64,000 nucleotides of DNA from positions 1 through 64,000 of the forward strand of contig JAGBSH010000025.1 in assembly GCA_017631885.1 (NCBI GenBank), read 5' to 3'. Made by a program: the position numbers and the translations under genes. Below the pieces are notes generated by a model. The model worked only from the letters and a program-made list of their open reading frames with translations. It was not told the origin of the DNA and did not search any database. The DNA comes from Fibrobacteraceae bacterium. Lineage in GTDB: Bacteria; Fibrobacterota; Fibrobacteria; Fibrobacterales; Fibrobacteraceae. Shown here one piece after another: positions 11,871 through 42,889 of the stretch. Positions within the stretch are counted from its first letter, which is position 1. Each line of letters begins with the position of its first letter.

Positions 11871-13235
11871 CTAAATACACCATGCCATATAAGAAGGAAC
11901 CTTTATGATACCATCTTCTATTTTTAATTGTTTCGGATGAACAATGATAGATTCACCCACCCGTTTTTTGAATTTATCCTTGAACTTGCCTAACGACGTC
12001 GTGGTGTAGTTCTTTGAAGATTTTACCTCCACTGGCTGTATCTTGAAATTGACCTTGCTTTCGTTAGAAAGCAAGAAGTCAATTTCCATAGAATTGCGAT
12101 GCTTGGCGGCATCATACTCTGTATAGAAAAAAAGTTTTCTGCCTTTAGCACGAATCATTTGTGCAATCATGTTTTCATGGAGCATTCCTTCGTTCAGCGA
12201 GAGTTTGCCGTCCATTATGGACTTATACAACTGATTGGATGCGATTTCATTTTCGCTGAAGGCAAGGCTCACCAAAAGTCCCGTATCGCCCAAGTAGCAC
12301 TTAACAAAGGATTCATTCTTGTTAAGAGCAAAACCAATATTTGGATCGTCGCATTTGTAACAAAGGTTGCAAATCATTGAGTCATCAAGCCAAAAGAGAG
12401 GCTCATCATATTTTGAGAAAGTCGCCGCATTGGATTTGTCTATTTCAGTAAGGACAATTTTTTTTTCGTGGGTAGAAAGGTAGCCCGGAATATTTTCAAA
12501 AATTGCGGAAACCTTGGAATTATAATGCTTGGAGGCTTTTCTGATATCATCGCGATAGAGATTTAGAATTTTTCGTTTTTCTTTGTCACTTTTCAAGAAA
12601 TCCCGATTGTTCTTTGCATAAGCCACAATGCTTTGCGGCATACCGCCTACTAGCATGTATTCTCTGAAAAGGCGTGTAGCGCGTTTATGGAAGTGGTCCT
12701 CTAGTGGCTTTTTTTGTGCAAAGCATTTAGCGATATACTCCAACAAAACATCCTCACCCAAGGCTTTAGCGAATTCCTCAAAATCACAAGGGAACATTTT
12801 CAATTTTTCTTCTTCGGAAGGAATCGTTATATCGTTGACATTTTCTTTAATTGAAATCAGTGAACCAGTTTCAATGAAATCGTAACGGCCGTCTGCCACT
12901 AGATACTTTATTGATTCTCGCGCTTTCGGGAATTTTTGGATTTCGTCAAAGATAATCAGTGTTTCTCTCTTATACAAAGGCTTATTGTATTCTAGAGACA
13001 AGACCTGAAAAAAAACATCCAAATTATTTAGGTTTGTATTGAAATTATCTCGGATTTTTTTTGATGCCTTATTGAAATCGACAAGAATATACGACTTGTA
13101 TTCTCGTTTACCGAAGTGCTCAGCTAAGGTGGATTTGCCAATTCGACGAGCGCCTTCTATTAACAGTGCGCTCCTCCCGTTGGCTTCTTTTTTCCATTCC
13201 ACAAGCCGGTCGTAGGCCTTTCTTTGAATTTCCAT
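11871..13235 (-). CDS. DUF4143-type AAA ATPase
   Basis: Starting at ATG 13235 the protein is 454 residues and aligns end to end with the paralogue at 40293. GGAAAG 6 bp upstream decides this start over ATG 13247, which has no ribosome-binding site. GARRIGKST is the Walker A of this family and LIIFDEIQKFP the Walker B. SLNEGMLHENMIAQM marks the DUF4143 region. EIDFLL followed by PVEVKSS gives a D...ExK arrangement like a degenerate PD-(D/E)XK nuclease domain. Function is unknown; the family is often linked to DNA or defence roles. The promoter region has three 34-bp-spaced direct repeats. It interrupts neither neighbouring operon and may be read through into the GT genes. Confidence 0.88.
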   Translation of the reverse strand: MEIQRKAYDRLVEWKKEANGRSALLIEGARRIGKSTLAEHFGKREYKSYILVDFNKASKKIRDNFNTNLNNLDVFFQVLSLEYNKPLYKRETLIIFDEIQKFPKARESIKYLVADGRYDFIETGSLISIKENVNDITIPSEEEKLKMFPCDFEEFAKALGEDVLLEYIAKCFAQKKPLEDHFHKRATRLFREYMLVGGMPQSIVAYAKNNRDFLKSDKEKRKILNLYRDDIRKASKHYNSKVSAIFENIPGYLSTHEKKIVLTEIDKSNAATFSKYDEPLFWLDDSMICNLCYKCDDPNIGFALNKNESFVKCYLGDTGLLVSLAFSENEIASNQLYKSIMDGKLSLNEGMLHENMIAQMIRAKGRKLFFYTEYDAAKHRNSMEIDFLLSNESKVNFKIQPVEVKSSKNYTTTSLGKFKDKFKKRVGESIIVHPKQLKIEDGIIKVPSYMAWCI

Positions 13236-13249
13236 CGAACTTTCCATTT

Positions 13250-13334
13250 CAATAGTACGCAAAGTAAAATATATTCTATTTATCAATAGTGCGCAAGGTA
13301 TTTTTCGTAAAAATCGTCAATAATGCAGAATGTA
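13250..13334 (-). promoter_or_regulatory. Triple direct-repeat control region of the DUF4143 gene (34-bp period)
   Basis: On the minus strand, copies TACATTCTGCATTATTG (13334-13318), TACCTTGCGCACTATTG (13300-13284) and TACTTTGCGTACTATTG (13266-13250) start exactly 34 bp apart. The two nearest the gene match at 15 of 17 positions; the farthest is more degraded. TATATT (13273-13268), a likely -10, lies between copies 2 and 3, and GGAAAG with the ATG follows copy 3. The region before the gene at 40293 has the same plan. Confidence 0.75.
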
Positions 13335-38667: not shown

Positions 38668-40197
38668 ATGGCACGTATCTCGAAATCGGCAAAATCGTTG
38701 CAATCCTCGGCGACTCTCGGCTTTGAACAGCAAATCTGGAACGCCGCCTGCGAACTCTGGGGGCATATCCCCGCAGCGGATTACCGCAAAATTTTCACCG
38801 GGCTCATCTTCTTGCGCTACATTTCGACCGCATTCGAAAAACGCTACAACGAGCTCGTCGCCGAAGGCGAAGGCTTCGAAGAAGATCTTGACGAATACGT
38901 GAGCGAAAACATCTTCTTTGTTCCACAAAACGCCCGCTGGTCAGAAATCGCAAAAGCCGCCCACACTCCTGAAATCGGCAAGATTCTCGACCAGGCGATG
39001 ATCGAAGTCGAGAAGAACAACAAGGCGCTCAAGGGCGTGCTCCCCAAGAACTACGCGGCCCCCGACCTCGATAAGCGTGTACTCGGCAATGTGGTCGATG
39101 TGTTCAGTAACATGGACATGAGCGACACCGAAGCAAGCAAGGATTTACTCGGCCGCACCTACGAATACTGCATCGCGCAATTCGCAAGCTACGAAGGCGT
39201 CAAGGGAGGCGAATTCTACACCCCTGCAAGCGTCGTGAAAACCATCGTGAGCATCCTCAAGCCGAGCGAAGGTAAGCGCGTTTATGACCCCTGCTGCGGC
39301 TCCGGCGGCATGTTCGTGCAGAGCATCAAGTTCATACAGGATCACAGTGGCAACCGCAACAATGTAAGCGTTTACGGACAAGAGGCCAACGCCGACACCT
39401 GGAAAATGGCGAAAATGAACATGGCCATCCGCGGCATCGACGCGAACTTCGGCGAACACCACGCAGATACGTTTTTCCACGACCTGCACGCCAACGAACG
39501 CTTCGACTTCATCATGGCGAACCCGCCCTTCAACCTCAAGAACTGGGGCCAGGAACAACTGCAAGAAGACCCGCGCTGGCAATACGGTCTCCCGCCCGCA
39601 GGCAATGCGAACTTCGCATGGATCGAACACATGATTTATCACCTCGCGTCCGGCGGAAAAATCGGGCTCGTCCTTGCGAACGGCGCACTCAGCACCCAAA
39701 CCGGCGGCGAAGGCGAAATCCGCAAACGCATCATCGAAGCGGACCTCGTCGAAGGCATAGTCGCCATGCCCACCCAGCTTTTCTACAGCGTCACCATCCC
39801 CGTCACGCTCTGGTTCATAAGCCGCGGCAAAAAACAGAAAGGCAAGACGCTCTTTATCGACGCACGCAACATGGGCCACATGGTGGACCGCAAGCACCGC
39901 GACCTCAGCGAGCAGGACATTGAACGCCTCGCGAGCACCTTCGAGAAATTCCAGAAAGGCAAACTCCAGGACGAGAAAGGCTTCTGCGCCGTAGTCGAAA
40001 CCGCAGACATCGCCAAGCAGGACTACATCCTCACTCCGGGCCGCTACGTCGGCATCGAAGACACCGTGCAAGACGACGAACCCTTCGAGCAAAAAATGAC
40101 CCGCCTCACCGGCGAACTCTCCCAAATGTTCGCGAAAAGCCACGACCTCGAAAAACAAATCAAGAAAAACTTGGAGAAACTCGGATTCAAGATGTAA
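38668..40197 (+). CDS. hsdM: Type I restriction-modification methyltransferase subunit HsdM
   Basis: A 509-residue HsdM. The N-terminal helical domain (FEQQIWNAACELWG, AADYRKIFTGLIFLRYIS) is followed by GGEFYTPASVVKTIVSIL, the SAM-binding motif VYDPCCGSGGMF (~205-216), and the catalytic NPPF in IMANPPFNLKNWG (~281-293). The C-terminal coiled region contacts HsdS. It methylates adenine at sites chosen by HsdS. It is richer in GC than its neighbours. A DUF4143 gene separates it from hsdS, and hsdR is 13 kb further right. Confidence 0.96.
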   Translation: MARISKSAKSLQSSATLGFEQQIWNAACELWGHIPAADYRKIFTGLIFLRYISTAFEKRYNELVAEGEGFEEDLDEYVSENIFFVPQNARWSEIAKAAHTPEIGKILDQAMIEVEKNNKALKGVLPKNYAAPDLDKRVLGNVVDVFSNMDMSDTEASKDLLGRTYEYCIAQFASYEGVKGGEFYTPASVVKTIVSILKPSEGKRVYDPCCGSGGMFVQSIKFIQDHSGNRNNVSVYGQEANADTWKMAKMNMAIRGIDANFGEHHADTFFHDLHANERFDFIMANPPFNLKNWGQEQLQEDPRWQYGLPPAGNANFAWIEHMIYHLASGGKIGLVLANGALSTQTGGEGEIRKRIIEADLVEGIVAMPTQLFYSVTIPVTLWFISRGKKQKGKTLFIDARNMGHMVDRKHRDLSEQDIERLASTFEKFQKGKLQDEKGFCAVVETADIAKQDYILTPGRYVGIEDTVQDDEPFEQKMTRLTGELSQMFAKSHDLEKQIKKNLEKLGFKM

Positions 40198-40201
40198 AAG
40201 C

Positions 40202-40281
40202 TGCATTTTCGTGCTGATTTGCATAAGTAAAAACTTGCACTTTTGTGTATAATTATATATATTAGTTTCTGCACTTTTGTG
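40202..40281 (+). promoter_or_regulatory. Triple direct-repeat control region of the second DUF4143 gene (34-bp period)
   Basis: TGCATTTTCGTG (40202-40213), TGCACTTTTGTG (40236-40247) and TGCACTTTTGTG (40270-40281) start exactly 34 bp apart, the first being an imperfect copy. TATATT (40258-40263) lies between copies 2 and 3. GGAAGG follows copy 3 and overlaps its last two bases, and the ATG is at 40293. The first copy begins 5 bp after the hsdM stop. Confidence 0.8.
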
Positions 40282-40292
40282 GAAGGCTGGCA

Positions 40293-41630
40293 ATGGAACG
40301 CAAAATAATTCAGAAATTCCTTGAATGGAAGAGAAAATCCGACGGCAGGACAGCCCTGCTTGTTGATGGGGCCAGGCGCATAGGCAAAAGCTATGCCGTT
40401 GAGACTTTTGCCAAAACCAACTACAAAAGTTACCTATTGATTGATTTTTCGTACCCACGCCCGGGAACTCTGGAATGCTTTAAAGAAGACTGTTACGACC
40501 TGGACCTTTTTTTCGCGAAGTTATCCGCCATATACGGAGTGCAATTATTTCCCCGGAAAAGCGTCATCATCTTTGACGAGGTCCAGCTATTTCCATTTGC
40601 AAGGCAACTTATAAAACAATTGGTAAAGGACGGACGTTTCGACTACATCGAAACAGGCTCTCTGATTTCGCTCCACAAAAATGTGAAGGATATTCTGATT
40701 CCCTCCGAAGAAGAACATCTGGAAATGTTTCCGATGGATTTTGAGGAATTTCTATGGGCGCTTGGAGACAAGGCAACAGTTCCCTTTCTAAAAAACTGTT
40801 TTGAAAAAAGGATTCCGTTAGGGCAAGCCTTGCACCGGAAGACACTGAACGAATTTCGCAAGTACATGCTTGTTGGTGGAATGCCGCAAGCGGTCGAAGC
40901 GTTCCGCAACTCCGGTGATTTTGCAAAAGCAGACACCATAAAAAAACAGATCCTCTCACTTTACCTGGCCGATATAGGAAAGTACGCCGGGAAAGACGAA
41001 TTAAAAGTTTATTCGCTTTTGGGAGATATTCCCGGTCAACTTTCTAAAAAAGAGAAGAAGTTCAAACTTGCCGACATTGACCAAAATGCACGAATGCGAA
41101 CATACGAAGACTCCTTTGTTTGGTTAGACAAGTCCATGATGATCAACCGCTGCGTAAACGCAACCGACCCAAACATCGGCCTTTCAATGAGCCGCGACAA
41201 CACAACGCAAAAGTGCTACATGGGCGATACAGGATTATTGGTAACCCAGACCTTCCGCGATAACGAATATACAGACAACTTACTCTATAAATCTGTTCTA
41301 TTGGATAAGTTAAACGTAAACGAAGGAATGCTAATGGAAAACATCGTGGCTCAAATGCTGCGGTGCAACGGCCACCACCTGTTTTTCTATTCACGAATTG
41401 ATTCGGCTAACCGTTCGAACAACATGGAAATTGATTTCCTGATATCGGACAACAAGAAAATATCGCCCGTAGAAGTAAAGTCTTCTGCTTATAGAAAGCA
41501 CTCTTCGTTAGACAAGTTTTACTCGCGGTTCAAGAACAAACTTGGAGAAAGATACGTGCTGTACCCCAAAGACGTCATGATAAAGGATGGAGTCGTCCAC
41601 TTACCCCTTTACATGGCTATGTTCTTGTAA
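40293..41630 (+). CDS. DUF4143-type AAA ATPase (second copy)
   Basis: A 445-residue paralogue of the protein at 11871-13235. Walker A GARRIGKS, Walker B VIIFDEVQLFP, YIETGSLISL, LNVNEGMLMENIVAQM and the C-terminal EIDFLIS...PVEVKSS (D...ExK, nuclease-like) are all shared. It sits between hsdM and hsdS, which is not the usual gene order of the type I operon. Its own promoter region makes it a separate unit. It may be an insertion that uses the hsd locus as a landing site, or a modulator of the restriction enzyme. Confidence 0.9.
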   Translation: MERKIIQKFLEWKRKSDGRTALLVDGARRIGKSYAVETFAKTNYKSYLLIDFSYPRPGTLECFKEDCYDLDLFFAKLSAIYGVQLFPRKSVIIFDEVQLFPFARQLIKQLVKDGRFDYIETGSLISLHKNVKDILIPSEEEHLEMFPMDFEEFLWALGDKATVPFLKNCFEKRIPLGQALHRKTLNEFRKYMLVGGMPQAVEAFRNSGDFAKADTIKKQILSLYLADIGKYAGKDELKVYSLLGDIPGQLSKKEKKFKLADIDQNARMRTYEDSFVWLDKSMMINRCVNATDPNIGLSMSRDNTTQKCYMGDTGLLVTQTFRDNEYTDNLLYKSVLLDKLNVNEGMLMENIVAQMLRCNGHHLFFYSRIDSANRSNNMEIDFLISDNKKISPVEVKSSAYRKHSSLDKFYSRFKNKLGERYVLYPKDVMIKDGVVHLPLYMAMFL

Positions 41631-41695
41631 TAGATTGAAATACGGAGTAACACCACGGGAATCTTAAACCTTAAAGGAATTGAAGAGAACAGAGA

Positions 41696-42889
41696 ATGAG
41701 CAAAACGGAATGGAAAGAATATAAACTCGGTGAAATCTACGAAGTTCACAACGGTTTATCCAAAGGACGAGAATTCTTTGGATCTGGTTATCCATTCATT
41801 TCATTTTCTACAGTTTTTAACAAATGGTTTATTCCCGAAATAATAACAGATTTCGCTCAAACAACAGAATCCGAGCAAGAAAGTTATTCCATTAAAGCTG
41901 GCGATATTCTTGTTACAAGAACTAGCGAAACTGCCGATGAATTGGGGATGAGCTGTGTTGCCTTGAGAGATATTCCTAACGCAACTTATAATGGTTTCTG
42001 CAAAAGGATGCGTCAATATAATAAAGATGTTGATGTTGATTCCAAATATGTTGGCTACTATATGCGAAACCCTGAATTCAGAAAGAAATTTCAGGCTTTT
42101 GCAGGATCAATGAGTACACGGGCTAGTTTAACGAACGACGCATTGCTTGGACTGACTATAAAATTACCCCCACTAGCTGAACAACAACGCATCGCCAAAA
42201 TTCTATCATCCCTTGATGACAAAATCGAACTCAACAATGCAATAAACAGGAATTTAGAGGAGCAAGCCCAAGCAATCTTCAAGAACTGGTTCATTGATTT
42301 CGAACCGTTTGGCGGGAAGATGCCGGAGGATTGGAAAAACGGTAGTCTTTCTGATATAGCTGATTATCTTAATGGTCTCGCTATGCAGAAATTCCGTCCA
42401 AAGAATGAAGAGGTCGGACTTCCTGTTCTAAAAATTAAAGAGTTACGTCAAGGCTTTGCCGGAGAAGATGCAGAATTATGCTCTCCAAACATAAAATCCG
42501 AATACATTGTAAATGACGGAGATGTCATTTTCTCTTGGTCAGGAAGTTTACTTGTTGACCTATGGTGTGGCGGAAAATGTGGATTGAATCAGCATTTATT
42601 CAAAGTGACATCAGAGCGTTATGACAAATGGTTCTATTACATGTGGACAAAGCATCATTTAGATCGCTTTATATTCCTTGCCGCCGACAAAGCAACCACA
42701 ATGGGTCACATCAAACGCGAAGAACTCGACAAAGCCGAGGTTTGCATCCCAACAAAGGCTGATTACAACAAAATCGGAAGCTCTCTAGAACCAATGATTG
42801 AAACAATAATAGCGAAAAGAGTTGAAAATCAACGTCTAACTTTGCTTCGTAACAAATTGCTGCCCAAATTAATGTCAAATTCGCAATGA
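41696..42889 (+). CDS. hsdS: Type I restriction-modification specificity subunit HsdS
   Basis: A 397-residue HsdS with two target-recognition domains (residues ~1-150 and ~210-370). Each TRD is followed by a conserved helix: PPLAEQQRIAKILSSLDDKIELN after the first and a similar PTKADYNKIGSSLE...NQRLTLLRNKLLPKLMS after the second. It sets the two half-sites recognised by the methylase and restriction complex. AAGAGAACAGAGAATG gives a weak ribosome-binding site. Confidence 0.95.
   Translation: MSKTEWKEYKLGEIYEVHNGLSKGREFFGSGYPFISFSTVFNKWFIPEIITDFAQTTESEQESYSIKAGDILVTRTSETADELGMSCVALRDIPNATYNGFCKRMRQYNKDVDVDSKYVGYYMRNPEFRKKFQAFAGSMSTRASLTNDALLGLTIKLPPLAEQQRIAKILSSLDDKIELNNAINRNLEEQAQAIFKNWFIDFEPFGGKMPEDWKNGSLSDIADYLNGLAMQKFRPKNEEVGLPVLKIKELRQGFAGEDAELCSPNIKSEYIVNDGDVIFSWSGSLLVDLWCGGKCGLNQHLFKVTSERYDKWFYYMWTKHHLDRFIFLAADKATTMGHIKREELDKAEVCIPTKADYNKIGSSLEPMIETIIAKRVENQRLTLLRNKLLPKLMSNSQ

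Follow-up and report, generated by a model that had tools for sequence, protein, structure and literature searches.

Two ATPase genes in one stretch of bacterial DNA each stand behind a row of short, evenly spaced direct repeats, and the question is what these repeats do and which protein reads them. The stretch (herein the window) comprises 64,000 nucleotides of a Fibrobacteraceae contig, and both genes are of the AAA_14/DUF4143 type, a family that is common in bacteria and archaea, uncharacterized, and listed as a possible antivirus defense gene. By profile, the protein encoded by the second of them (the window gene) is a member of PDC-S01, the PADLOC phage defense candidate combining AAA_14 with DUF4143. 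PDC-S01 has been reported as the fourth most common defense annotation in prokaryotes, its function being experimentally unvalidated, and as the most frequent single locus in rumen genomes. One paper describes the fusion of an ATPase with a PD-(D/E)-X-K domain and gives antiviral function as pending validation for most such defense candidates (PMC12988326). We found no report of an upstream repeat array of PDC-S01 in the open-text literature, most subscription journals and preprints lying outside the scope of the search; open-text searches turned up no relevant account of DUF4143 with repeats, of COG1373, or of AAA_14, the one DUF4143 match being an expression table.

The window gene is preceded by three copies of TGCAYTTTYGTG in exact 34-bp steps with TATATT between copies 2 and 3, as the original prediction had it (Table 1). 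GGAAGG, placed right after copy 3, is present there and starts on the last base of that copy, and copy 1, described as abutting the hsdM stop codon (TAA, 40195 through 40197), adjoins it across a gap of 4 bp. Copy 3 is separated from the ATG of the window gene by 11 bp. The other gene (the first paralogue), whose product is about 49% identical to the window protein, has the copies TTCTGCATTATTGA, TTGCGCACTATTGA, and TTGCGTACTATTGA, with TATATT at 13273 through 13268; the layout is that of the window gene and the motif is different, which confirms the claim that layout is kept while repeat sequence differs between the two paralogues. At both genes, TTGCNC followed by 17 bp and TATATT forms a promoter-like pair around copy 2; a scan with the strict sigma-70 consensus did not call the TTGCAC/TATATT pair as a promoter, and no known RNA family was found in the region. 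The window 12-mer has five exact matches in the whole 2.37 Mb genome, namely the three array copies and two isolated singles; beyond the arrays, this genome holds only isolated single matches for the window and first-paralogue motifs that could be other targets. The remaining two DUF4143-matching genes of the same genome have no array and carry an inverted repeat before the start, with 17-bp perfect arms (TTTTACGGAATTTGGGA) at C24:268557-269036 (L001) and 11-bp arms (TGGTGCGGAAA) at C1:95631-96098 (L004).

Table 1. Features of the window discussed in the text, with coordinates numbered from its first letter
Feature	Position	Strand	Basis or remark
First paralogue, AAA_14/DUF4143 type	11871-13235	-	PF13635 match, PADLOC PDC-S01
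Array of first paralogue, motif TTGCGYACTATTGA, 34-bp steps	13249-13330	-	14-mers at 13330-13317, 13296-13283, 13262-13249
hsdM, left neighbor of cassette	38668-40197	+	Pfam N6_Mtase and HsdM_N
Portable cassette: array, one gene, and tail of about 30 nt	40198-41659	+	Right edge approximate
Repeat copy 1, TGCATTTTCGTG	40202-40213	+	Read from sequence
-35-like hexamer TTGCAC	40235-40240	+	17 bp from -10-like TATATT
Repeat copy 2, TGCACTTTTGTG	40236-40247	+	Overlaps -35-like hexamer
-10-like hexamer TATATT	40258-40263	+	Between copies 2 and 3
Repeat copy 3, TGCACTTTTGTG	40270-40281	+	At expected transcription start
GGAAGG, likely ribosome binding site	40281-40286	+	Read from sequence
Window gene, AAA_14 + DUF4143 ATPase with PD-(D/E)xK nuclease-like C terminus (PADLOC PDC-S01)	40293-41630	+	Pfam, PADLOC, AF2
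hsdS, right neighbor of cassette	41696-42889	+	Pfam Methylase_S; leader common to empty sites

The window protein exceeds the curated Pfam cutoffs for both of its domains (AAA_14, 72.2 bits; DUF4143, 80.6 bits) and matches the PDC-S01 profile with E = 1.4e-105. Residues G31, K32, D95, E96, E379, E394, and K396 are invariant in 56 relatives and D381 is nearly so; with the Walker A/B and ExK residues thus conserved, the ATPase and nuclease-like motifs are intact. We read the protein as having three parts, an AAA/STAND-like ATPase, a winged-helix-like middle, and a PD-(D/E)xK nuclease-like end. Its AF2 model has pLDDT 90.4 and pTM 0.89, and the middle part is called winged-helix-like from secondary structure in that model alone, with no domain match. 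The best solved fold match is the archaeal STAND-type ATPase 2qen (PABY2304), with TM-scores of only 0.40/0.49, followed at low TM-scores by Apaf-1, ORC/Cdc6, RFC, and others; another archaeal STAND-type ATPase, 2fna (SSO1545), is a weak sequence match (E = 0.043).

Relatives were searched for in 111 genomes of the same bacterial family and found in 85; a wider scan, of species genomes, added 80 loci (Clostridia, Bacteroidales, spirochaetes, Bifidobacterium, archaea, and others), and the 171 loci analyzed represent this family and more than ten other bacterial or archaeal groups. The best upstream repeat lag is 31 to 35 bp in 83 of 90 family loci and 32 to 34 bp in 72 of 80 wider loci. At least three upstream copies, each matching at 11 of 16 bases, precede 134 of the 171 relatives; no such array appeared in Markov shuffles (0/171). 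Of 375 other genes located on these contigs, 10 have such an array, and three of those ten are themselves relatives (two AAA_14/DUF4143 genes and one ATPase_2/DUF234 gene). Copy number reaches six; about a fifth of the relatives have fewer than three detectable copies, and no array copies were found in some of the distant relatives examined. Step length is narrowly distributed (330 steps: 33 bp, n = 193; 34 bp, n = 104; 32 bp, n = 24; other, n = 9). The original prediction would have been refuted by loss of the 34-bp spacing in orthologs; the spacing is kept, with steps almost always of 32 to 34 bp. Neighboring copies have per-base identities of 0.82 to 0.90 in their cores and 0.32 to 0.59, near background, in the linkers. 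The linkers thus hold their length but not their sequence, which favors selection on the spacing over a remnant of recent duplication. A palindromic site was rejected, since the similarity of motifs to their own reverse complements (0.33) is close to that of unrelated motifs (0.28); the sites are mostly asymmetric.

The core promoter of the gene is overlapped by the copies, and in the clades tested their register is fixed, the promoter elements being predicted from sequence and not mapped. Measured from the TTGC of a copy, a TATAAT-like box begins 23 bp on in 8 of 24 loci of the window clade and in 11 of 17 of the TTGCG clades, against chance expectations per offset of 0.57 and 0.41, respectively (loci non-redundant); in the CTTGATTTCGTG clade, 10 of 36 loci have the box starting 3 bp after the first G of GTG (chance, <1 per offset). 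Because the copies hold this register with the -10-like box, binding would be expected to block the promoter, and we infer, without reporter data, that repression is the probable outcome. Several clades speak against this, having copies at -35 and further upstream that an activator could use too. Self-activation from the array, or a switch between activation and repression, is nevertheless improbable: many Clostridia loci have the last copy at -35 and further copies upstream, as activation would have it, but the window clade has a copy at the expected transcription start, downstream of -10, and copies inside the -35/-10 spacer fit occlusion better.

Array and gene are coupled. A relaxed doublet of the window motif has 10 exact matches in the 111 genomes, and each stands directly upstream of a family gene (one of these genes being cut by a contig end). 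The same doublet matches six viral contigs, five of which are one similar sequence, and no family gene was found in the viral sequence examined; the idea that phages carry arrays as decoys was rejected on these grounds. The five similar contigs (L250 through L254) have in common a 33-bp-spaced pair, TGCACTTTAGTG.

The proposal that the whole unit is a portable cassette is borne out by occupied, empty, and alternatively occupied sites next to hsdM homologs of 89 to 99% identity. The cassette follows the hsdM stop in three genomes: the present one, G072 (a different genus), and G110. A different spacer takes its place in G022, G093, and G056, followed by the same hsdS leader; G028 has a spacer and then a similar gene start, and G070 has unrelated sequence at this position. 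At the L271/L272 loci, the hsdM stop is followed in G055 by another family gene with a 32-bp two-copy array (ATCACGTTTTCTGCAA) and in G109 by similar promoter sequence, the gene not being recovered in the stretch examined. A relative of 82% identity (L008) lies in a different genomic context. From these comparisons we infer that the cassette is exchanged via recombination in its flanks. Its mobility and its presence at different loci would also suit repeats that are transposon ends or a homing target, and tandem duplication could leave repeats as a by-product; this group of explanations has very little in its favor, because the right edge of the cassette carries no array copy, no obvious target duplication is found, and the linkers show no sign of recent duplication. 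With the array at the left end only, the cassette lacks the hallmark of a transposon with terminal repeats. The window gene sits inside a type I restriction locus; elsewhere its relatives have diverse neighbors and no conserved partner. The surrounding segment of the window (36721 through 56348) is rich in defense genes, encoding Abi_2, hsdM, the cassette, hsdS, an HD-CE/HATPase protein, DUF2971, an AAA_21 (AbiEii-like) protein, an HTH_3/M78 protein, and hsdR.

Repeat sequence is related to protein clade. Across 116 non-redundant loci, protein identity correlates with motif similarity (Mantel rho 0.33; largest of 999 permutations, 0.13), a relation whose absence would have refuted the original prediction; shared descent contributes to the correlation alongside any coadaptation. 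Below 55% protein identity, mean motif similarity stays flat at about 0.3; at 80 to 90% it is about 0.7. The window motif class includes an Aeromonadales (gammaproteobacterial) relative of 69% identity (TTGCACTTTCGTG) and Clostridia relatives near 61% (TTGCTTTTTCGTG); the CTTGATTTCGTG class extends across many phyla, and the spacing class too follows protein clade. The repeat sequence goes with the clade of the protein and not with the host. Since the motif goes with the protein clade from phylum to phylum, whatever binds it must move together with the cassette, and the ATPase gene is the only gene there; it is likely, by inference and without binding data, that the protein binds its own array. 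A host regulator reading the repeats in place of the cassette's own protein is hardly credible, since it has nothing beyond general possibility to support it and would have to account both for one motif accompanying one protein clade in different phyla and for different motifs at paralogues within one genome. The long-type paralogues examined in Bifidobacterium panos (45 DUF4143 genes) and in a Thermoplasmatales archaeon (29 DUF4143 genes) have different arrays. The further suggestions, that each paralogue coevolves with its own sites and that this keeps systems separate, hold in part: motif and gene travel and change together, but binding specificity is not shown, and motifs within a genome are rarely alike (similarity above 0.6 in 2 of 135 pairs, one of the two being the same locus counted twice), but the contrast with pairs between genomes (4.1%) is weak.

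The array, its clade-set spacing, the link of motif to clade, the coupling of array to gene, and the boundaries of the cassette are shown by computation, as is, for the clades tested, the fixed register of the copies with a -10-like box. The reading we favor, with reservations in the absence of binding or expression data, is that the array is a private operator bound by the product of the gene behind it, which thereby represses itself; the identity of the binder, the repression, its trigger, and any role in defense are inferred. The ATPase protein would bind the repeats cooperatively, with one unit to each step of roughly 33 bp, and the bound row would cover the core promoter and keep expression of its own gene low. 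Should a trigger such as foreign DNA draw the protein off or switch it, expression would rise. Array and gene would move between genomes as a one-gene cassette, with changes in repeat sequence accompanying changes in the protein. It counts against repression that three to six phased sites are seldom needed for negative autoregulation of a gene. In the partial correlation between motif and protein windows, the highest values fall at residues 369 through 400, with lesser peaks at 185 through 216 and 249 through 280; these peaks are suggestive only, and such covariation as such is in keeping with the protein being the binder. The main one falls in the nuclease-like part and not mainly in the winged-helix part, which, together with the relatives that have fewer than three copies or none, weighs against the self-repressor reading.

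This peak would suit an array that serves as an assembly or loading platform for an ordered ATPase filament (self-marking, licensing, or nuclease targeting), with any promoter effect secondary. The constant 33/34-bp spacing, the presence of up to six copies, the unconserved linkers, and fold matches to AAA assemblies on DNA, among them ORC/Cdc6 and MuB filaments, agree with such a platform; the overlap of the copies with promoter elements in fixed register does not, nor do the promoter inverted repeats, like ordinary operators, often found in a shorter subfamily, and we regard it as possible but unlikely. Equally tentative is the thought that the family comprises many mutually separate, fast-diverging protein-DNA address systems, the array both setting expression and marking cassette DNA as self; if true, dozens of paralogues could coexist in one genome, each ATPase-nuclease assembling on a private phased array.

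Iteron-type origins and Tn7-like end arrays also consist of regular direct repeats to which an associated protein binds. Arrays of the window type differ from these in covering a promoter and flanking a single gene on one side only, without a second end, in a cassette that has no replication or transposase gene. Toxin-antitoxin operators such as that of AbiE likewise place a self-encoded regulator on repeats over its own promoter (PMC7319586); the window system differs in having one gene with no separate antitoxin, direct and not inverted repeats, a longer and fixed spacing, and a repeat sequence that changes by clade. The array is a direct handle on the family, since it predicts where each one of thousands of PDC-S01 proteins would bind. 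Protein-site swaps across clades occur naturally in PDC-S01, and the arrays would constitute a natural data set on DNA-binding specificity changing while spacing stays fixed; possibly they supply many orthogonal promoter-regulator pairs.

Among shorter relatives (DUF4143 proteins of about 390 aa), the seven loci read with arrays (L175, L176, L189, L194, L201, L202, and L203) have up to eight upstream repeats in 22/23-bp steps, and others have promoter inverted repeats, among them the copy on contig C24 of the present genome with its perfect 17-bp arms; the private repeat type thus goes with the subfamily. A Thermus pTT27 ATP-binding gene (L296:19854-21074, minus strand; probably TT_P0211) has TGAATGACTATCATTCA just before its start. 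No direct-repeat array was found in the TT_P0211 region, which shows, on reading by eye, only a short palindrome beside the start; its RNA was reported to be 6.6-fold higher with plasmid and Argonaute (PMC4406477). In Bifidobacterium jacchi, an ATPase_2 + DUF234 gene (L125:7659-9059, minus strand) has an array of its own, with 30-bp steps of TGATTTATCAAATCAT; related ATPase families may share the arrangement.
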